Assembly (NCBI RefSeq): GCF_901873445.1
Contig: NZ_CABFLN010000017.1
Location: forward strand, 1-30,489
Source: Gemella haemolysans
GTDB lineage: Bacteria; Bacillota; Bacilli; Staphylococcales; Gemellaceae
Direction of reading: 5' to 3'
Length of the DNA stretch: 30,489 nucleotides
This document shows positions 252 to 28,475 of the stretch, in pieces; positions within the stretch are counted from its first letter, which is position 1; every line of letters starts with the position of its first letter. The translations under genes and the position numbers were made by a program. The notes below the pieces were generated by a model that had not been told where the DNA came from, ran no database searches, and saw only the letters and a program-made list of their open reading frames with translations.

Positions 252-327
252 GAGCCATTAGCTCAGTTGGTAGAGCATTTGACTTTTAATCAAAGGGTCG
301 AAGGTTCGAGTCCTTCATGGCTCACCA
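252..327 (+). tRNA. tRNA-Lys(TTT)
   Basis: Acceptor GAGCCAT/ATGGCTC, anticodon loop CTTTTAA (TTT), CCA encoded. Confidence 0.97.
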
Positions 328-334
328 TTCTTTT

Positions 335-419
335 GCGGGTGTGGCGGAATTGGCAGACGCACTAGACTTAGGATCTAGCGCCTCACGGCGTGGGGGTTCG
401 ACTCCCTTCACCCGCACCA
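335..419 (+). tRNA. tRNA-Leu(TAG)
   Basis: Class II tRNA with a long variable arm. Acceptor GCGGGTG/CACCCGC, anticodon stem CTAGA/TCTAG with loop CTTAGGA (TAG), CCA encoded. Confidence 0.97.
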
Positions 420-432
420 TTTCTGAATATTC

Positions 433-507
433 GCGAAAGTAGTTCAGGGGTAGAACATCACCTTGCCAAGGTGAGGGTCGCGGGTTCAAATCCCGTCTTT
501 CGCTCCA
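433..507 (+). tRNA. tRNA-Gly(GCC)
   Basis: Acceptor GCGAAAG/CTTTCGC, anticodon loop TTGCCAA (GCC), discriminator T, CCA encoded. Confidence 0.97.
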
Positions 508-521
508 ATAGTTAATATAGT

Positions 522-608
522 GCCGGGGTGGCGGAACTGGCAGACGCACAGGACTTAAAATCCTGCGGTAGCAATACCGTACCGGTTCGATTCCGGTCCT
601 CGGCACCA
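522..608 (+). tRNA. tRNA-Leu(TAA)
   Basis: Class II tRNA with a long variable arm. Anticodon stem CAGGA/TCCTG with loop CTTAAAA (TAA), CCA encoded. Confidence 0.97.
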
Positions 609-616
609 TTATATTA

Positions 617-693
617 GCGCCCATAGCTCAATTGGATAGAGCGTTTGACTACGGATCAAAAGGTTAGGGGTTCGACTCCTCTTGGGCGCGCCA
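617..693 (+). tRNA. tRNA-Arg(ACG)
   Basis: Acceptor GCGCCCA/TGGGCGC, anticodon loop CTACGGA (ACG, expected to be edited to ICG by TadA), discriminator G, CCA encoded. Confidence 0.97.
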
Positions 694-1915: not shown

Positions 1916-2800
1916 ATGAGTGAAAGTGTAAAACCATTTAGTAAACTGTATGATTTAACACAAAGAGCAGAAAAAGTTGGTATTTCTGATGATGATGTTC
2001 TTAGAGAAATCTTAGTAGAAAAGATTGTACCTAATAAATATCAACCTAGAAGGGAATTTACAGAAGGGAAGATTAAAGAATTGGCAGAGTCTATTAAACA
2101 AAATGGATTACTCCAATCTATAACAGTACGTGATATAGGGAATGGATTTTATGAACTTATTGCTGGTGAAAGAAGATTAAGAGCAATTAAGTATTTACAA
2201 TATTCTACAACTAAGGCAATTGTAAAAGAATTAACTGAAGAGCAAATGGCAACTTTAGCTTTGATTGAAAATATTCAAAGAGAAGAATTAACACCAATAG
2301 AAGAAGCTTATGCATATCAAGAACTTCTAAGTATAAATAAACTTACGCAAGATGAACTTGCGAAGTCATTAGGTAAAACACAGGCTACTGTTGCGAATAA
2401 GTTACGTTTATTAAAATTAAGTGATAGAGTAATTGATGCTATTAATACTAAGAAAATTACTGAGCGACATGGGCGTGCTATGGTAAAATTAGATGTTTCT
2501 GCACAAGAGAAATTATTAGTTCAGATTTTATCACAAAATTTAAATGTTTCTCAAACTGAAGAAAAAATTGATACTTATCTAAAGATTAAAAAAGATATTA
2601 AAGTTTTTAATACTGTCGTTAATTATGATGGTCAGAAAGTTATAGCTAAACTTACAAAAGAAATAGCAAAATTAGAAGAAAAATATAATGTTAGTCTTAA
2701 TAAAGAAGAAGAAGAAAATATGGATAGTATAGTTATTAAAGTTACTATACCAAGATATGTTAATAAAGAGGTAAAAGATGAAAATTTTAGCGATATGTAA
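1916..2800 (+). CDS. noc: Nucleoid occlusion protein Noc (ParB family)
   Basis: Noc is a ParB-family CTPase/DNA-binding protein that spreads from Noc boxes, contacts the membrane through an N-terminal amphipathic helix, and keeps the division septum off the nucleoid. The ParB N domain is at about residues 30-120, with the CTP-binding GERR motif. A helix-turn-helix follows (LTQDELAKSLGKTQATVANK), then ITERHGRAM, where Noc proteins have ERH and Spo0J has GHGR/AHAR. The N-terminal stretch SKLYDLTQ could be the membrane helix. At 294 residues the length is normal. ATG follows AGGAGG by 6 bases. Its end overlaps parA by 23 bases. Noc is favoured over a second ParB by motif and by its place upstream of parA-parB. 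Confidence 0.9.
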   Translation: MSESVKPFSKLYDLTQRAEKVGISDDDVLREILVEKIVPNKYQPRREFTEGKIKELAESIKQNGLLQSITVRDIGNGFYELIAGERRLRAIKYLQYSTTKAIVKELTEEQMATLALIENIQREELTPIEEAYAYQELLSINKLTQDELAKSLGKTQATVANKLRLLKLSDRVIDAINTKKITERHGRAMVKLDVSAQEKLLVQILSQNLNVSQTEEKIDTYLKIKKDIKVFNTVVNYDGQKVIAKLTKEIAKLEEKYNVSLNKEEEENMDSIVIKVTIPRYVNKEVKDENFSDM

Positions 2801-3536
2801 TCAAAAAGGTGGAGTAGGAAAAACAACTACGTCAATAAATTTAGCAGCTTCTCTAGCTCATTTAAAGAAAAAAGTATTGTTAATAGATACTGATCCACAA
2901 GCTAATGCTACGAGCGGTGTAGGTGTAGATAAAGCAGCGATAGAACAATCAATTTATAACATACTTGTTGATGAAGTTAATATTAATGATGTTATTTTAA
3001 AAACAGCTTATGAGAACTTAGATATAGTTCCATCTAGTATAGCTTTAGCAGGTGCAGAAGTTGAACTAGTTTCAGCGATTAGTCGTGAACAACGTATGAA
3101 AAATGCAATCTCAGAAATTAAAGAAAAATATGACTATGTGGTAATCGATTGTCCACCGTCTTTAGGTCTAATTACGTTAAATTCTTTAACTGCAGCTAAT
3201 GGGGTAATAATTCCTGTACAAACTGAATATTATGCCTTAGAAGGGCTTAGCCAGCTTATGAATACATTTAATATAGTTAGAAAACACTTGAACTCTAAAT
3301 TAGATATTTTCGGTGTATTACTTACTATGACTGATAGTAGAACAAATATATCTAATCAGGTAGCAGAGCAAGTTAGAGAACACTTTAAAGATAAAGCATT
3401 TAACACAGTTATTTCAAGAACTGTACGTTTAAGTGAAGCGCCAAGTTTTGGTGAACCAATTATTGAATATGCTAAAAATTCTAATGGTGCAAAACAATAT
3501 TTATCATTAGCTAAAGAGGTGATTGAGCGTGGCTAA
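2778..3536 (+). CDS. parA: Chromosome partitioning ATPase ParA/Soj
   Basis: Deviant Walker-type ATPase that works with ParB in origin segregation and, in Bacilli, also regulates DnaA. The P-loop KGGVGKTT is at residues 10-17, Walker A' is DTDPQANAT near 38-46, and Walker B is VVIDCPPSLG near 120. The length of 252 residues is typical for chromosomal Soj (about 253). It begins inside the end of noc, with ribosome binding site AGAGG before the ATG, and runs into parB; the three genes are almost certainly translationally coupled. Chromosomal rather than plasmid ParA is favoured by the short N-terminus and the noc/parB context. Confidence 0.96.
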   Translation: MKILAICNQKGGVGKTTTSINLAASLAHLKKKVLLIDTDPQANATSGVGVDKAAIEQSIYNILVDEVNINDVILKTAYENLDIVPSSIALAGAEVELVSAISREQRMKNAISEIKEKYDYVVIDCPPSLGLITLNSLTAANGVIIPVQTEYYALEGLSQLMNTFNIVRKHLNSKLDIFGVLLTMTDSRTNISNQVAEQVREHFKDKAFNTVISRTVRLSEAPSFGEPIIEYAKNSNGAKQYLSLAKEVIERG

Positions 3537-4389
3537 GAAATTAGGTAAAGGTTTAGGACGTGGACTTGATGCTATCTTTGCTACTGAAAATGTAGAATTA
3601 ACTACTGATAATGATAAAATTGTAGAAATTTCGTTAGAAGAGATTAAGAAAAATCCATATCAACCACGTACTTATTTTAATGAAGAGAAGTTAAATGAAT
3701 TAAAAGAATCAATTGAAAAAAATGGATTATTACAACCTATTATTGTAAAAAAAGCTGTAAAAGGTTATTATATTATAGCAGGGGAGCGCCGTTATAGAGC
3801 TTTTGAACTGCTAGGTAAGAAAGAAATTCCAGCTATTATTAAAGAAATGATAGATGAAGAAATGATGATTTTTGCGGTTCTAGAGAACTTGCAACGTGAG
3901 GATTTATCAGCACTAGAAGAATCAGAAAGTTATAAAAATCTGATGGATAAAATGTCATTAACTCAAGAAGAACTTGCTAAAAAACTTGGGAAAAGTAGAC
4001 CATATATCGCGAATAGTTTACGACTATTAAAATTACCTACAGAAATAAAAAATAAGCTTGAGCAAGGGCTAATAAGTGCAGCTCATGCAAGAACTTTACT
4101 TTCATTAAAAACAAAAAAAGCTATGGAAGAAGTTTGTGCTTTAGTAATTGATAGAAAAATGTCAGTTCGCGAGCTAGAAGAATATGTAGTGAAGTTATTA
4201 AAACCTAAAGAGATTAAGAAACCAAAAACTAAGGATATATTTATAGAAGAACAAGAAAACAATCTTAAAAAACTGCTAGGAACTTCTGTAACGATTAAAC
4301 AAGGTCGTAATAAAAAAGGTAAGATAGAAATTGAGTTCAAAGATAATGATGAATTTGAACGTATTATTTCATTATTCAAGGATGAGTAA
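3529..4389 (+). CDS. parB: Chromosome partitioning protein ParB/Spo0J
   Basis: ParB is a CTP-dependent clamp that loads at parS sites and spreads, working with ParA and SMC loading. From the chosen start the protein begins MAKKLGKGLGRGLDAIF, the standard Spo0J N-terminus. Next come NPYQPR, the CTP-binding AGERRYRA, ENLQREDLS, a helix-turn-helix (LTQEELAKKLGKSRPYIANS) and a C-terminal dimer domain. I chose GTG at 3529, 9 bases after AGAGG; a TTG at 3523 is in frame but sits only 3 bases from that site. It overlaps the parA stop by 8 bases. At 286 residues the length is typical. I saw no convincing parS site in the window. Confidence 0.95.
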   Translation: MAKKLGKGLGRGLDAIFATENVELTTDNDKIVEISLEEIKKNPYQPRTYFNEEKLNELKESIEKNGLLQPIIVKKAVKGYYIIAGERRYRAFELLGKKEIPAIIKEMIDEEMMIFAVLENLQREDLSALEESESYKNLMDKMSLTQEELAKKLGKSRPYIANSLRLLKLPTEIKNKLEQGLISAAHARTLLSLKTKKAMEEVCALVIDRKMSVRELEEYVVKLLKPKEIKKPKTKDIFIEEQENNLKKLLGTSVTIKQGRNKKGKIEIEFKDNDEFERIISLFKDE

Positions 4390-22239: not shown

Positions 22240-22268
22240 TTGATTGAATGAATTTGATTTGTTATACT
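22240..22268 (+). promoter_or_regulatory. Promoter of the rhodanese lipoprotein gene
   Basis: TTGATT (22240-22245), 17 bases, TATACT (22263-22268). AAAGGAG at 22288-22294 precedes the ATG. Confidence 0.75.
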
Positions 22269-22301
22269 ATGTATGAAAACAATAACAAAGGAGTTAAAAT
22301 T

Positions 22302-23030
22302 ATGAAATACAATAAATTATTAGTTGTCAGTATGGCAGCCGTTTTATCTTTATCTTTAGCAGGTTGTTCTTCAGCTTCGAATAGTAGCTCAAGCAGTAAC
22401 AATGGGACAGTTGCTGTAAAAGAACTAAAAGGAGAAGAATTAAATAAAATTGAAAAAGATGACAAAGAAAAAGAAAAATACCTTGTTATCGATGTAAGAG
22501 ATGCTAAAGAATACAAAGAGGGGCATGTAAAACACGCTATTAATATTCCATTAGCTGATATTGAAAAACATGCGGAGCACTTAAGCGCATGGAAAGATAA
22601 AGAAGTAGTAACAGTTTGTAATACTGGTAAGAAAAGTAAAGAAGCTGCTGATAAACTTGTAAAAGCAGGATTCAAAAAAGTTTCTAATGCACAAGGTGTC
22701 AAAGACTATAAAGACTATGAAATAGTTAAATTTACAACATTGTTAGCAAGTGACTTCCAAGCGGCAATCGATAAAAAAGAAGGAACATTTATTGATGTTC
22801 GTGAAGCTAAAGATTACGAAAAATCTCATGTAGCAGGAGCTAAAAATATTGATGTAAAAAATGTTGATAAAGATTTAGCAGCACTATTACCAGCAGATAA
22901 AAATGCACCAGTTTATACGTATTGCTATAGCGGAAATCGTTCTTCAAAAGCAGCACAAAAAGCTGTAGAACTTGGTTATACAAATGTGTATAACGCATGG
23001 GATGGTACAAAAGAACACGAATACAAATTT
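22302..23030 (+). CDS. Double-rhodanese lipoprotein, catalytic cysteines present
   Basis: Predicted lipoprotein of 243 residues with lipobox LSLAGC (Cys22), so it should sit on the outer face of the membrane. After a Ser/Asn-rich linker come two rhodanese domains: about 40-140 with IDVRDAKEYKEGHV and catalytic-loop Cys106 (CNTGKKS), and about 145-240 with IDVREAKDYEKSHVAGA and Cys208 (CYSGNRS). It probably handles sulfur (thiosulfate or persulfide), but the acceptor is unknown. I start at ATG 22302, after AAAGGAG; the in-frame ATG at 22248 precedes the -10. The stop codon is at 23031-23033. It is a paralogue of the next gene. Confidence 0.88.
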
Positions 23031-23107
23031 TAAAGAGATATTATAAAAAACAGTGAAAAATAAAACTGTTTGTTAGAAAAAAAATTATTTATAAGTTATA
23101 CTAATAG

Positions 23108-23162
23108 AAGACAAGGTTCTACATAAATATACAAAAAATTTAAGGTATTACCTTGTCTTTTA
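23108..23162 (+). promoter_or_regulatory. Leader hairpin before the second rhodanese-like gene
   Basis: AAGACAAGGT (23108-23117) pairs with ACCTTGTCTT (23150-23159), followed by TTTATT, terminator-like. A local AAGGT-ATT-ACCTT hairpin (23143-23155) uses the same right arm, so the two cannot form together. A weak TATACT (23097-23102) lies upstream. It could be the terminator of the first gene or an attenuator of the second. Confidence 0.5.
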
Positions 23163-23188
23163 TTAAATAAGGAGAGGAAGAAAAACAA

Positions 23189-24049
23189 ATGAAATATAAT
23201 AAGTTTTTAGCTGTAAGTATGTCAGCAGTGTTATCATTAGCTTTAGTAGGATGTTCAACTACTTCATCTGTAAAAGAATTAAAAGGTGAAGAGTTAAACA
23301 AAATTCAAAAAGATGATAAGGAAAAAGAAAATTATCTAGTTGTAGATGTAAGAGATGAGGCGTCTTATAAAGAAGGACACCTTAAACATGCAATTAACAT
23401 TCCATTATCAAAAATAGAAAAAAGCATCGAAGAAATCCGTACGTGGAGAGAGAAGAAAGTAGTTGTTTATAGTGATAAATCTGATACAACAAAAGATGCT
23501 GTAGAAAAACTAACAAAACAAGGATTTAAAGATGTATCTGGAGCTCAAAATGTAAAAGATTATAGCTATGATCTTGTGAAATATTCATCATTAAGTAGTG
23601 GTAAATTCCAAGATGCATTATTAGATACAGCTTCAAACAATGTATTCTTAGATGTAAGAGATAAAGCTGATTTTGAAAAAGGTCACGCAGCAGGTGCTAA
23701 AAACATTGATGTTAAAAAATTAGATGATTTAAAATCAATTTTACCAGAAAATAAAGAACTACCGATATATGTGTACAGTTCTACTGGAAATAGTTCTTCA
23801 GTAGTTGCTCAAAAACTTATTGATTTAGGATATAAAAATGTATTTAATGCAATTGATGGAACTAAAGAGCACAGCTATAAATTTGAAATTGCAGATTGCT
23901 GTAAAGATCCAAGCGCTGCAGTAAAAGGTTCAGAGCATAAGGAAGGGCACTGTGAACATTGTAAAGATGGACATGGTGAACACAAAGGTCACGAAGGACA
24001 CAATCACTCTTCAGAGAAGAAAGATGATCATTCAGGGCATAATCATTAA
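23189..24049 (+). CDS. Rhodanese-like lipoprotein with Cys-to-Ser active sites and His/Cys-rich tail
   Basis: A 286-residue paralogue of the preceding gene, sharing most of MKYNK-LxVSM, VKELKGEELNKI-KDDKEKE and KNIDVK. The lipobox is LALVGC (Cys22). Both rhodanese loops have lost the nucleophile: Ser95 (YSDKSDT) replaces Cys106 and Ser197 (YSSTGNS) replaces Cys208 of the neighbour. It should therefore be inactive as a sulfurtransferase. A tail absent from the paralogue (residues 233-286) carries 11 His and 4 Cys (DCCKD, HCEHCKDGHGEH, HEGHNH), which looks like a metal-binding segment. AGGAGAGGA precedes the ATG. A role in metal capture or delivery is inference; a structural partner for the active paralogue is an alternative. 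Confidence 0.85.
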   Translation: MKYNKFLAVSMSAVLSLALVGCSTTSSVKELKGEELNKIQKDDKEKENYLVVDVRDEASYKEGHLKHAINIPLSKIEKSIEEIRTWREKKVVVYSDKSDTTKDAVEKLTKQGFKDVSGAQNVKDYSYDLVKYSSLSSGKFQDALLDTASNNVFLDVRDKADFEKGHAAGAKNIDVKKLDDLKSILPENKELPIYVYSSTGNSSSVVAQKLIDLGYKNVFNAIDGTKEHSYKFEIADCCKDPSAAVKGSEHKEGHCEHCKDGHGEHKGHEGHNHSSEKKDDHSGHNH

Positions 24050-24061
24050 TATTTAACGTAC

Positions 24062-24120
24062 AAGGGTGACTCAAAATAGAAATTTCAATTAGAGATATTG
24101 TTATTGAGTCTCCCTTTTTT
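24062..24120 (+). terminator. Terminator after the rhodanese-like gene
   Basis: AAGGG-T-GACTCAA (24062-24074) pairs with TTGAGTC-T-CCCTT (24104-24115), followed by six T residues, with a loop of about 29 bases. Confidence 0.8.
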
Positions 24121-24185
24121 ATATGTAAAATCGATTGTGAAATTAGAATAATTTAAGAGAGTTTATTAAAGGAAAAATTTCAGAG

Positions 24186-25676
24186 ATGAAAAACAAAATA
24201 ATATTTTTTACAAGAGTACCGAAGGTGGGTACGACAAAAACAAGGTTATATGACTTTGTTTCACTAGAAAATGCTATCGAAATTCAAAAAAAATTAATGA
24301 AATTGAATTATAGACTTTTAAAAGAAAGCGGAGAAGAATTAGTAGTTTATCACGATGGTCAAAATAGTGATGATAATACGATGAAGGATATTCTAGAAAA
24401 GAGGAAATTTTCTTATCAAGAAGGAAAAACACTTGGTGATAAGATGTATAATGCTATTGAAGCAGAATTGAAAACTAGTGACAAGGTGATTTTATTAGGT
24501 TCTGATATCTATAATCTAAAAAAAGATATGATTAATACTGCTTTTGAGAAATTAGATAATTTTGATATTGTTATAAATCCTAGTATTGACGGTGGGTACT
24601 TTTTAATAGGAATGAAGAAAGCTACTAAGGAGGTATTTAATCTCCCTAGTTATGGTGACAATAGTGTTTTAGAGAATTTACTTTCTGTTTGTAAAGAGCA
24701 GAAATTAAGCTATTATCTAGGTGAAAGTGGACTTGATATCGATACAAAAGAAGACCTTCTACTTGCGGAAACAGGATATGAGAATATTGAGTTATTAGGT
24801 GCGGGAGAATATAATATTAATTTTACCTTTGACGATAAGAATTTTAAAAAAGTTCTTAGAATAAATATGAAGAGTCAGATGAATCTTGAGAATCAAATAG
24901 AGTATGAATATGAGACTCTACAATTGTTGAAAGATAGTGGAGTTACACCAAAACCGTATGAACTAGTGACGGAAACAAGTTTATTGCCATATAAATATTT
25001 AACGATGGAGTTTTTAGAAGGTAGAACACTTAATTACAAAACGGATATGGATATTGCAGCTTATTTATTAAGTAAGGTTCACAATACACCATATGGTGAC
25101 AACAATTTAATCAATGCAGCGAATCCATTTCAACTGATGTTTGATGAATGTAGACAAATGTCGGGTGAATATTTATCTTGGGATAAGGCTGATAAAAAAG
25201 TTAGCTCGTATATCAATACTTTCTTAGAAAAATGTCAGACGCTTATACCTGAAAAATATAGTATAGCTAATCCATGTATTATAAACACCGAACTAAATTC
25301 AGGAAACTTCCTGATTGGAGAAGGAAAAGAAGATAGTTATGTTATTGATTGGGAGAAGGCATTAATAGGAGAGTGTGAACAAGATTTAGCTCATTTTCTG
25401 GCACCGACGACAACATTTTGGAAGACGGATATTATTTTATTGAAAGCAGAAATTGATGAATTTTTAGAAGAATATAGTAAATATCGTACATTTGATAAAG
25501 AACGATTTGAAAGATATTTAATATTTAATTGTCTAAGAGGTGTGACATGGTGTAGTATGGCGTTTAAACAGTATAGTGAAAATGATAAAATGTTGATGGA
25601 TGATAGTACATTTAAAAAAATAGCCTCATATATTGAATTAGAATTTTTAGAAAAAGTATCAGCATACTTTAAATAG
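24186..25676 (+). CDS. Fusion of TIGR04282/DUF2064 glycosyltransferase-like domain and APH/choline-kinase-like domain
   Basis: A 496-residue two-domain cytosolic protein. Residues about 1-195 match the GT-A fold family TIGR04282 (DUF2064): FFTRVPKVGTTKTRL (8-21), LLGSDI with Asp107, NPSIDGGYFLIG (131-142) and DIDTKEDL (184-191). Residues about 200-496 resemble choline-kinase/aminoglycoside-phosphotransferase proteins: GAGEYNINF, VLRI with the N-lobe Lys/Arg region, TMEFLEGRTL hinge, and IDWEKA with metal-binding Asp388. The catalytic loop HxDxxxxN reads NTELNSGN (367-374), so His is Asn and the catalytic Asp is Glu. Nucleotidyl or glycosyl transfer coupled to phosphorylation of a small alcohol or sugar is a guess. 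A VTT gene follows after 10 bases. Confidence 0.8.
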   Translation: MKNKIIFFTRVPKVGTTKTRLYDFVSLENAIEIQKKLMKLNYRLLKESGEELVVYHDGQNSDDNTMKDILEKRKFSYQEGKTLGDKMYNAIEAELKTSDKVILLGSDIYNLKKDMINTAFEKLDNFDIVINPSIDGGYFLIGMKKATKEVFNLPSYGDNSVLENLLSVCKEQKLSYYLGESGLDIDTKEDLLLAETGYENIELLGAGEYNINFTFDDKNFKKVLRINMKSQMNLENQIEYEYETLQLLKDSGVTPKPYELVTETSLLPYKYLTMEFLEGRTLNYKTDMDIAAYLLSKVHNTPYGDNNLINAANPFQLMFDECRQMSGEYLSWDKADKKVSSYINTFLEKCQTLIPEKYSIANPCIINTELNSGNFLIGEGKEDSYVIDWEKALIGECEQDLAHFLAPTTTFWKTDIILLKAEIDEFLEEYSKYRTFDKERFERYLIFNCLRGVTWCSMAFKQYSENDKMLMDDSTFKKIASYIELEFLEKVSAYFK

Positions 25677-25686
25677 GAGGAGAGTA

Positions 25687-26286
25687 ATGACTGAGTTTAT
25701 TCAAAGTTTTGGTGTACTAGCACCAATTATTTATGTATTAATGTTTATGTTCTTACCGGTATTTTTCTTTCCGGTTCCAATACTTGCAGTTGCTGGAGGA
25801 GTAGCGTTTGGTTTTGTCGAGGGAAGTTTACTAACTTTTGTTGGAGCTTCATTGAATTGTTATATTATGTTTGTAATTTCTCGTCGTTTTGGACGCGAAT
25901 GGGTGAAAAACTACCTTAAGAAAAAAATGACACCGAAGCAACATGATAGAATCTTTAATGTTAGTGATGAGAAGTTGATGATGAGTCTAGTAATTTTGAG
26001 ACTTATTCCTTTAGTGCCATATAATATGATAAATTATGGATATGGTTTAACTAATATAAGTTTAACAAAATATATGATAGCGAGTGTACTTGGAATAATT
26101 CCAGGAACAGTAGTATTTTTAAACTTTGGAGCTACTAGTACAAATGTCTTTAGTAAAGAATTTTTAATAGCCTCATTATTAGTAATTTTATTAACTGTTG
26201 GTTCTATCTATTTATCTAAGTTAGTAGAAAAAAGAGAACAACAAAAGAAAGCAGAAAATAACAAAGAAAACTCTCAAGAGATTTAA
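25687..26286 (+). CDS. VTT/DedA-like membrane protein (TVP38/TMEM64 family), copy 2
   Basis: A 199-residue integral membrane protein and a clear paralogue of the gene at 5503-6051: FGVLAPIIYVL, FFPVPILAVAGGVAFGF, KQHDRIFNVSDEKLMMSLVILRLIPLVPYNMINYGYGLT and IPGTVVFLNFGA align block by block. The VTT core arginine and prolines are kept. The C-terminus is charged and Lys/Glu-rich (EKREQQKKAENNKEN). AGGAGGAG precedes the ATG and overlaps the stop region of the fusion gene, so the two are cotranscribed and may act on the same compound. Lipid or small-molecule transport is inferred from the family. The end of the gene forms the left arm of its terminator. Confidence 0.88.
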   Translation: MTEFIQSFGVLAPIIYVLMFMFLPVFFFPVPILAVAGGVAFGFVEGSLLTFVGASLNCYIMFVISRRFGREWVKNYLKKKMTPKQHDRIFNVSDEKLMMSLVILRLIPLVPYNMINYGYGLTNISLTKYMIASVLGIIPGTVVFLNFGATSTNVFSKEFLIASLLVILLTVGSIYLSKLVEKREQQKKAENNKENSQEI

Positions 26287-26995: not shown

Positions 26996-27448
26996 TTACC
27001 TCATTTCTTTTAATTTATCTTTCAATATTTTATAGTAATGTCTTGAAATATGAACCTGCTTTTTAGAATTTGAAAAAGAAGCGGTACTAGAACCAGAAAA
27101 AGATTTTTCTAGCGAATAAATTACTTTTGTATTTATTATAGAGCTCTTAGAAATTCGACAATAATAAAATGGAATCATCTTTTCTAATTCATACAATTTA
27201 AACTTCACTTCGAAGAATTCATCTGTAGTATGAGCATATACCTTATTATCAGAAGTTTCAAAAAATAATATTGATTCGAGTGGGATGAAATATTCTGAGT
27301 CACCTTTATAGAAAATTATTTTTTGAGAATTTAATAAAGCTTTTTCAACTAGTTCTTTAATTAATATTACATCATTATTTAAGTCAGGTGTCTTAATAAC
27401 AAGTTCGATGTCTTTAAGCGTTGAATCTAATTCTATGTTAATTTTCAT
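26996..27448 (-). CDS. LytTR-family DNA-binding regulator
   Basis: A 150-residue protein with no receiver domain. Residues about 50-150 form a LytTR DNA-binding domain: YFIPLESILFFETSDNKVYAHT, FKLYELEKMIPFYYCRISKSSIIN, and VHISRHYYKILKDKLKE at the end. The N-terminal 45 residues are of unknown fold. Small stand-alone LytTR proteins paired with a membrane inhibitor form LytTR regulatory systems in streptococci; the next gene encodes a membrane protein with a LiaF domain. The ATG at 27448 has GAAAGGAG upstream. The promoter carries the 21-bp-spaced direct repeat expected of a LytTR target, so autoactivation is likely. It is not a two-component response regulator, since the REC domain is missing. 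Confidence 0.9.
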   Translation of the reverse strand: MKINIELDSTLKDIELVIKTPDLNNDVILIKELVEKALLNSQKIIFYKGDSEYFIPLESILFFETSDNKVYAHTTDEFFEVKFKLYELEKMIPFYYCRISKSSIINTKVIYSLEKSFSGSSTASFSNSKKQVHISRHYYKILKDKLKEMR

Positions 27449-27478
27449 ATTGTCTCCTTTCTAAATGTTTATAGGTAT

Positions 27479-27507
27479 ATTATATATTATTTCAACGTAA
27501 AAATTAA
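27479..27507 (-). promoter_or_regulatory. Promoter of the LytTR-LiaF operon
   Basis: On the minus strand TTAATT (plus coordinates 27502-27507), 17 bases, perfect TATAAT (27479-27484). The weak -35 fits an activator-dependent promoter. Confidence 0.7.
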
Positions 27508-27517
27508 TAGCTTTTAG

Positions 27518-27548
27518 GTAAGTGGTAAAAAACCAGTTGTAAGTGGTA
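27518..27548 (-). promoter_or_regulatory. Putative LytTR binding site (direct repeat)
   Basis: GTAAGTGGTA occurs at 27518-27527 and 27539-27548, starts 21 bp apart (two helical turns), reading TACCACTTAC on the gene's strand. It ends 10 bases upstream of the -35 of the LytTR operon. LytTR proteins bind pairs of about 9-bp direct repeats with this phasing. Confidence 0.7.
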
Positions 27549-27570
27549 TAAATATGGAATATGAGAACAC

Positions 27571-27584
27571 TTGTGATTTCACAA
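27571..27584. promoter_or_regulatory. Short perfect dyad between the LytTR site and selC
   Basis: TTGTGA-TT-TCACAA, a perfect 14-base palindrome, 35 bases upstream of the selC -35 and 22 bases beyond the LytTR repeat. It may be an operator; no known regulator is assigned. Confidence 0.3.
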
Positions 27585-27619
27585 ATAGAATAGTATTCTG
27601 TATACGTTAACATATCATC

Positions 27620-27648
27620 TTGCATTTTTGCAATATTTATTGTATAAT
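27620..27648 (+). promoter_or_regulatory. Promoter of the selenocysteine tRNA gene
   Basis: TTGCAT (27620-27625), exactly 17 bases, TATAAT (27643-27648). The tRNA begins 12 bases after the -10. Confidence 0.85.
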
Positions 27649-27660
27649 ATAAACATACTT

Positions 27661-27757
27661 GGGAGTGGATGAGTTCTGGTGTGCTCTCTAGTCTTCAAAA
27701 CTAGTATGAGGGGTTAAGAGCCTCTTGGGTGGGTTCGATTCCCACACATTCCCGCCA
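27661..27757 (+). tRNA. selC: tRNA-Sec(TCA)
   Basis: A 97-base tRNA-like gene with encoded CCA. The anticodon stem CTAGT/ACTAG frames loop CTTCAAA, so the anticodon is TCA (27695-27697), reading UGA. The long acceptor (GGGAGTGG against ACATTCCC, eight positions with one G-A mismatch at the bottom), T arm GTGGG-TTCGATT-CCCAC, extended D arm and very long variable arm (GAGG ... CCTC) are the marks of bacterial tRNA-Sec; discriminator G is followed by CCA as in E. coli selC. A serine tRNA would have a shorter acceptor and tRNA-Ser(TGA) is already present at 1099. A T run follows directly. Confidence 0.92.
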
Positions 27758-27782
27758 GTTTTTTTATTTTTTAGATATATAA

Positions 27783-27818
27783 AAGCCATCATGGAGTGAT
27801 TTTCATGATGGCTTCTTT
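27783..27818. terminator. Bidirectional terminator between selC and the ECF operon
   Basis: AAGCCATCATG (27783-27793) pairs perfectly with CATGATGGCTT (27804-27814). T-rich on the plus strand, TTTTAT on the minus strand; it touches the end of the convergent transporter gene. Confidence 0.85.
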
Positions 27819-28475
27819 CTATTTATTTAGTACTAATAATAGAGATAAAAGTATAGAGAAAAGTAATATAATAAATATACTTTTGTTTTTATCGATTATA
27901 TATTTATTATAGTGAGTTCGTTTTTTAAAGTCTTCATAGGCATGTACTGTCATCGCTTCAGATATTTGAGGCTGCCAAGTTAAAGCTATAAATATAGCTT
28001 TTGCATAGTAGTAAGGTGACCAAAAAGGTAAGAAGATACCCCTAAGTCGACTTGATTTTGTAATCATTTGGGTTTCGTATTGTATTCTTGGCAATGCTTG
28101 AATAACTACTAGAAGACCATAGACTACATTAGATGAAAGTCCATGTTGTTCAAGATATTTTAATAGTTCCACTAGAGAAATGTATGTTGCTAAAATTAAA
28201 CCTAATCCTGCAAAACTATATGTTCTAGTAAAAATTAAAAGAGCGTATTTATAATTAGAAGTTTGAACAATAATAGCCCAGGCAGAACCTATTGCAGGTA
28301 GAAGTGGTAGGAATAGAAAAATTAGTAACTTATTCCAATATTTTGACGAAACTAATAAAACTATTGTTGTACATATTATAGTAATATTTAGAGCTAGTAA
28401 TTTACTAAACGAAATCCAAATAGTTAATAACATTATTATAAGAGTAAGAGTAGGACTAATTATTTTCTTTTCCAT
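27819..28475 (-). CDS. ykoC: ECF transporter T component (YkoC-like)
   Basis: Transmembrane EcfT/CbiQ-family subunit of 218 residues that links the substrate-binding S component to the ATPases. Several hydrophobic helices run through the N-terminal half and one at the C-terminus. The coupling-helix motifs appear as SRLRG (near 143) and AMTVHAYED (near 175), the T-family Ala/Arg/Gly-type signatures. Its start overlaps the ATPase gene by 20 bases, with GGAGG upstream. As the third gene in ykoE-ykoD-ykoC order it should serve a thiamine-precursor transporter. It is not the general EcfT, since the operon carries its own S and A components. Confidence 0.85.
   Translation of the reverse strand: MEKKIISPTLTLIIMLLTIWISFSKLLALNITIICTTIVLLVSSKYWNKLLIFLFLPLLPAIGSAWAIIVQTSNYKYALLIFTRTYSFAGLGLILATYISLVELLKYLEQHGLSSNVVYGLLVVIQALPRIQYETQMITKSSRLRGIFLPFWSPYYYAKAIFIALTWQPQISEAMTVHAYEDFKKRTHYNKYIIDKNKSIFIILLFSILLSLLLVLNK

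Follow-up and report, generated by a model that had tools for sequence, protein, structure and literature searches.

An apparently orphan selenocysteine tRNA gene of Gemella haemolysans and the UGA-containing reductases that it probably serves

Gemella is a human oral coccus. A stretch of 30,489 nucleotides from Gemella haemolysans (contig NZ_CABFLN010000017.1; the whole stretch analysed is called the window below) carries a gene for a selenocysteine tRNA (tRNA-Sec) with no partner genes in sight. The locus raises the question whether this tRNA takes part in selenocysteine (Sec) decoding with partners encoded outside the window, is left over from a lost system, or has been put to another use. 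The features of the locus are as follows.

27620-27648, plus strand: promoter-like element, TTGCAT, 17 nt and TATAAT, ending 12 nt before the tRNA-Sec gene
27661-27757, plus strand: tRNA-Sec gene (selC), with acceptor strand, D-arm, anticodon UCA, variable arm, 5-bp T-stem, and G followed by an encoded CCA
27668 facing 27746, plus strand: eighth acceptor pair, non-standard, G (acceptor position 8) facing A; same letters in 12 of 12 family genes
27695-27697, plus strand: anticodon TCA, reading UGA (ARAGORN; gene position 35)
27783-27814, no strand assigned: terminator-like hairpin of 14 pairs, between the tRNA-Sec gene and the convergent gene 27819-28475

A preliminary description of the DNA had called a tRNA-Sec gene with a TCA anticodon at 27661-27757 and proposed to check it with a covariance model. 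ARAGORN made the same call on the plus strand. RF01852 was the top Rfam family at the site and, with 68.7 bits, passed its gathering score of 47. In the predicted fold the acceptor has seven standard pairs and a D-arm is formed; the anticodon stem and the T-stem are 5 bp each, and the variable-arm stem is 8 bp. The gene ends with G and then an encoded CCA. The long variable arm and the encoded CCA of the earlier description were thus both found. Its long acceptor holds for the seven standard pairs, but the eighth is G opposite A. Passing the RF01852 cut-off is by itself no proof of a Sec tRNA, because 5 of the 14 control genomes also had a match to this model above the threshold, whereas selA passed its own in one of the 14 and selB in two. 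The weight is carried by the UCA anticodon and the partner genes.

In bacterial tRNA-Sec an acceptor/T stack of 8 + 5 bp is typical, and the 8-bp acceptor stem is held to be an identity element. The stack of the Gemella tRNA consists of seven standard pairs and the G opposite A, followed by five T-stem pairs; the eighth pair is where it differs from the tRNAs of other bacterial Sec-decoding systems. We compared 12 tRNA-Sec genes, namely that of the window, those of nine Gemella genomes and two from a second genus of the same family (here g148). Because G8 faces A in every one of them, SelA and SelB of this family may recognise a tRNA-Sec with a 7-bp or G.A-capped acceptor rather than an 8-bp stem, a suggestion from sequence that we regard as rather unlikely. 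The G opposite A is the sole detail of the gene that could reward a specialist.

The TTGCAT-17-TATAAT element was present as described earlier, but to call it strong was an overstatement. Its -10 hexamer is a perfect TATAAT, the -35 hexamer TTGCAT matches TTGACA at only 3 of 6 positions, and a consensus promoter scan of 27300-28000 did not list the element. TTG-N20-TATAAT occurs three times in the window, both strands taken together, and a single sighting is weak evidence. What counts is conservation: TTGNNN-17-TATAAT is kept upstream of all 12 family genes, ending 12-16 nt before the gene. On the plus strand of 27300-28000 one terminator-like hairpin was found, compared with a mean of 0.2 (sd 0.4) in shuffled sequence.

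The absence of selA, selB and selD from the window was upheld: none was found among 20 window proteins scanned against NCBIfam (10 in one run, and 10 in another in which only matches with E of 1e-30 or better were considered), and the other open reading frames, out of 34, were judged by eye. We also looked for in-frame TGA. After frames overlapping ordinary open reading frames were dropped, a single TGA-containing frame of 90 aa or more was left (286-624, minus strand). It spans a tRNA array and is not credible as a gene. The earlier description had likewise called no gene with an in-frame TGA.

The Sec machinery was then sought, with curated cut-offs, in nine whole Gemella genomes and 14 named control genomes, a sample to which the window's own genome does not belong. 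The tRNA-Sec, selA, selB and selD were each over the cut-off in all nine Gemella genomes. The corresponding numbers among the controls were 5 for RF01852, 1 for selA, 2 for selB and 2 for selD. In every Gemella genome SelA and SelB have their full length and SelD contains a single in-frame TGA, within the motif CGGU. By their coordinates, selD, selB and selA succeed one another on the same strand in a stretch of about 7 kb or less. In having all four components Gemella resembles other bacteria with the Sec-decoding trait, but its tRNA gene stands apart from selD-selB-selA. In six of the nine genomes selD lies downstream of the tRNA-Sec gene, at 6.1, 7.1, 16.9, 22.8, 23.9 and 25.6 kb; in one it is 173 kb away, and in two it is on another contig. 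Since the window stops 2732 bases past the tRNA-Sec gene and selD is at least 6.1 kb off in the congeners, the Sec genes are not expected inside it. The orphan look of the tRNA is most likely an edge-of-window effect.

The preliminary description had allowed for a Sec system elsewhere in the genome. This agrees with the four components of the congeners, of which the nearest compared (G001) has 93.4% identity over 13,386 aligned window bases, in two G001 stretches. For the window's own genome, we infer from these relatives that it carries selA, selB and selD as well as UGA-containing reductases.

The gene order around selD was read in one genome alone (G008), where it is selD, yedF, a DUF3343-like gene, selB, a cysteine desulfurase gene and selA. 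In the NCBIfam search YedF and a cysteine desulfurase family were over the cut-off; the desulfurase did not reach that of the model for the Sec lyase SclA. The DUF3343-like protein, which matched nothing in NCBIfam, was named by resemblance. Lin et al. 2015 (PMC5322559) describe DUF3343 genes in the neighbourhood of yedF or of genes for Sec lyase, and link YedF to SelD. The G008 copies are similar to these in having selD next to them and a cysteine desulfurase gene nearby. They differ from them in lying between selD and selB, with a desulfurase that does not reach the SclA cut-off.

Genes that could use such a tRNA were found in the same genomes. We counted only frames with a full site motif and dropped, as chance, looser matches that held multiple Us or lay in another frame. 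GrdB, full-length and with one TGA, was found in six of the nine Gemella genomes; GrdA, likewise with one TGA, was found in these six as well. PrdC with one TGA was found in seven, which also have PrdB with TGA. Every genome has at least one pair, GrdA/GrdB or PrdB/PrdC: two have the Grd pair only (G004 and G006), three the Prd pair only (G002, G007 and G008), and four have both. The UGA codons fall at the sites CFVU in GrdA, UGTC in GrdB and PrdB, and CQDU in PrdC, so that those of SelD and of these four reductases are all at CxxU or UxxC sites. A 2022 review (PMC9312934) gives FdhA, SelD, GrdB, GrdA and PrdB as the five bacterial selenoproteins with the widest distribution, mentions a CxxU form of PrdC, and lists CxxU/UxxC-type motifs for GrdA, GrdB, PrdB and PrdC. 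In three genomes (G003, G008 and G009) the PrdB matches contain two TAG besides the TGA, outside the 241-aa frame with one U that is found in each. Beside the UGA forms, three genomes (G002, G003 and G007) encode another PrdB-like protein, in which Cys occupies the Sec site, and another PrdC, without TGA. Other parts of the two enzymes were seen in G005: PrdB, PrdA, a PrdD and both subunits of glycine reductase component C exceed their cut-offs there, and a GrdE-like protein does not reach that of its best model.

The Gemella tRNA-Sec is probably used by these Stickland reductases, whose genes contain an in-frame UGA. The grd and prd selenoenzymes of the Stickland reactions are best known from Clostridia. 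The Gemella proteins are similar to them in that GrdA, the GrdB family and PrdC are over their cut-offs and UGA stands at the CFVU, UGTC and CQDU sites, but the host is a coccus of the Bacilli. In a sample of 398 genomes from the class, seven had a full-length GrdB with TGA, G001 among them. A GrdB/PrdB-family match with E of 0.001 or better was found in 30 of the 398 (over the cut-off in nine), and 29 of these 30 also had selA over the cut-off when the listings were compared by eye; the match of the single exception has no TGA. The analysis thus places UGA-containing genes for glycine and D-proline reductase in Gemella. We found no account of selenocysteine or of Stickland reductases in Gemella in open-licence literature, judged by titles, abstract openings and passages, and one may be in print elsewhere. 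In passages of related papers, Gemella is mentioned as one taxon among others or in connection with its proline racemase.

The preliminary description had also proposed a search for UGA-containing genes with a bacterial SECIS. In the congeners, SECIS-like hairpins were looked for in SelD and the four reductases. The 45 nt after each UGA were folded and compared with 300 synonymous recodings; the genomes are related, and the tests are thus not independent. The number of recodings as stable or more stable was 0 to 14 for SelD (nine genomes), 1 to 5 for GrdB (six genomes) and 0 to 2 for PrdC (seven genomes). The folding models therefore support SECIS-like hairpins in three of the five families. 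The hairpin predicted for PrdB is weak, with 26 to 83 recodings as stable or more stable in seven genomes. For GrdA, a SECIS within 45 nt of the UGA was considered and rejected, 18 to 145 of the 300 recodings being as stable in six genomes.

Serine charging, conversion by SelA, selenophosphate synthesis by SelD and delivery by SelB make up the established bacterial Sec pathway. The corresponding course of events in Gemella would begin with transcription of the tRNA-Sec from its own promoter and its charging with serine. SelA would convert the Ser-tRNA to Sec-tRNA with selenophosphate supplied by SelD, and SelB would bring the product to the UGA codons of SelD, GrdA, GrdB, PrdB and PrdC. Gemella could thereby run glycine reductase reactions, D-proline reductase reactions, or both. 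We infer that UGA is decoded as Sec in Gemella.

We consider it very probable that 27661-27757 is a functional tRNA-Sec kept across the genus and serving the UGA codons of these five proteins. Two other readings, both raised in the preliminary description, have to be weighed against it. If the tRNA were a remnant of a Sec system lost by the window's strain, the lack of any Sel protein among the 20 scanned window proteins would be explained, and loss of Sec does occur in the family. The order contains selA over the cut-off in 12 of 157 genomes, namely the nine Gemella and three of six g148 genomes, all in Gemella's family. Both the tRNA-Sec and selD are over the cut-off in the same two g148 genomes (G409 and G413). 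In three others (G408, G410 and G411; 97, 99 and 96% complete), the tRNA-Sec, selD and selA are all below it; their best RF01852 matches, 42.2 to 42.9 bits, are near the second-best matches of Gemella (42.2). One of the three, G410, keeps a 109-aa open frame (C1:30904-31182) that matches the C-terminal part of SelA, positions 364-454 of 455, and looks like a case of recent loss. These same three genomes speak against a relic in the window, since at 96% completeness or more they are without selD and intact selA and also without a tRNA-Sec over the cut-off. The sequence of the gene argues in the same direction. The 12 family genes amount to two distinct sequences that differ in a single column (gene column 57 of 97 nt, in the variable-arm loop); the window gene is identical to that of six of the nine Gemella genomes and one column off in the other three, and its TTGNNN-17-TATAAT is in place. 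With selA, selB and selD present in all nine congeners, we regard a relic as very improbable. One genome counts against simple co-occurrence: G412 of g148 (72% complete) has selA over the cut-off and neither selD nor tRNA-Sec, which is likely a result of assembly incompleteness. The g148 pattern rests on searches for tRNA-Sec, selA and selD in six genomes. With selD and tRNA-Sec over the cut-off in two of the six, this genus is a small natural system in which to study how the Sec trait is lost.

A tRNA repurposed to suppress stop codons or to insert another amino acid at UGA would also have the UCA anticodon, and the unusual G opposite A at the eighth acceptor pair might be taken as a sign of such a change. 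This reading hardly accounts for full-length SelA and SelB in all nine Gemella genomes, or for congener UGA codons at CxxU/UxxC sites in SelD and in the four reductases, for which the review (PMC9312934) lists such motifs; we give it the least chance of all, slightly below that of a relic. Neither reading suits a gene that is all but invariant and accompanied in every Gemella genome by selA, selB, selD and UGA-containing reductases. The functional tRNA-Sec that we prefer fits these observations; the presence and co-occurrence of the genes, the places of the UGA codons and the conservation were all seen directly in the congeners.

The earlier remark that Sec use is uncommon among cocci of the Bacilli holds for the order outside Gemella's family, but not for the class: 86 of its 398 sampled genomes have selA over the cut-off, and among the Bacilli as a whole Sec is thus no rarity.

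Other genes of the window were noted in passing. A LytTR-domain gene (26996-27448) adjoins the tRNA-Sec gene, and a match to it was found at all nine Gemella tRNA-Sec loci and at neither of the two second-genus loci, of which one spans just 1.7 kb. An array of 18 tRNA genes includes two for tRNA-Thr(TGT) whose bodies are identical (168-243 and 1470-1544). At 1916-4389 a ParA-like gene lies between two genes of the ParB family (Noc-like, scoring under the Noc cut-off), an arrangement known near replication origins. Upstream of the tRNA-Sec gene, 22248-26286 contains two genes that each encode two rhodanese domains, a gene for a DUF2064-APH fusion and one for a VTT-domain protein. A link of this set to selenium supply would be speculation. 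Judged by eye, G008 has similar genes in the same order.
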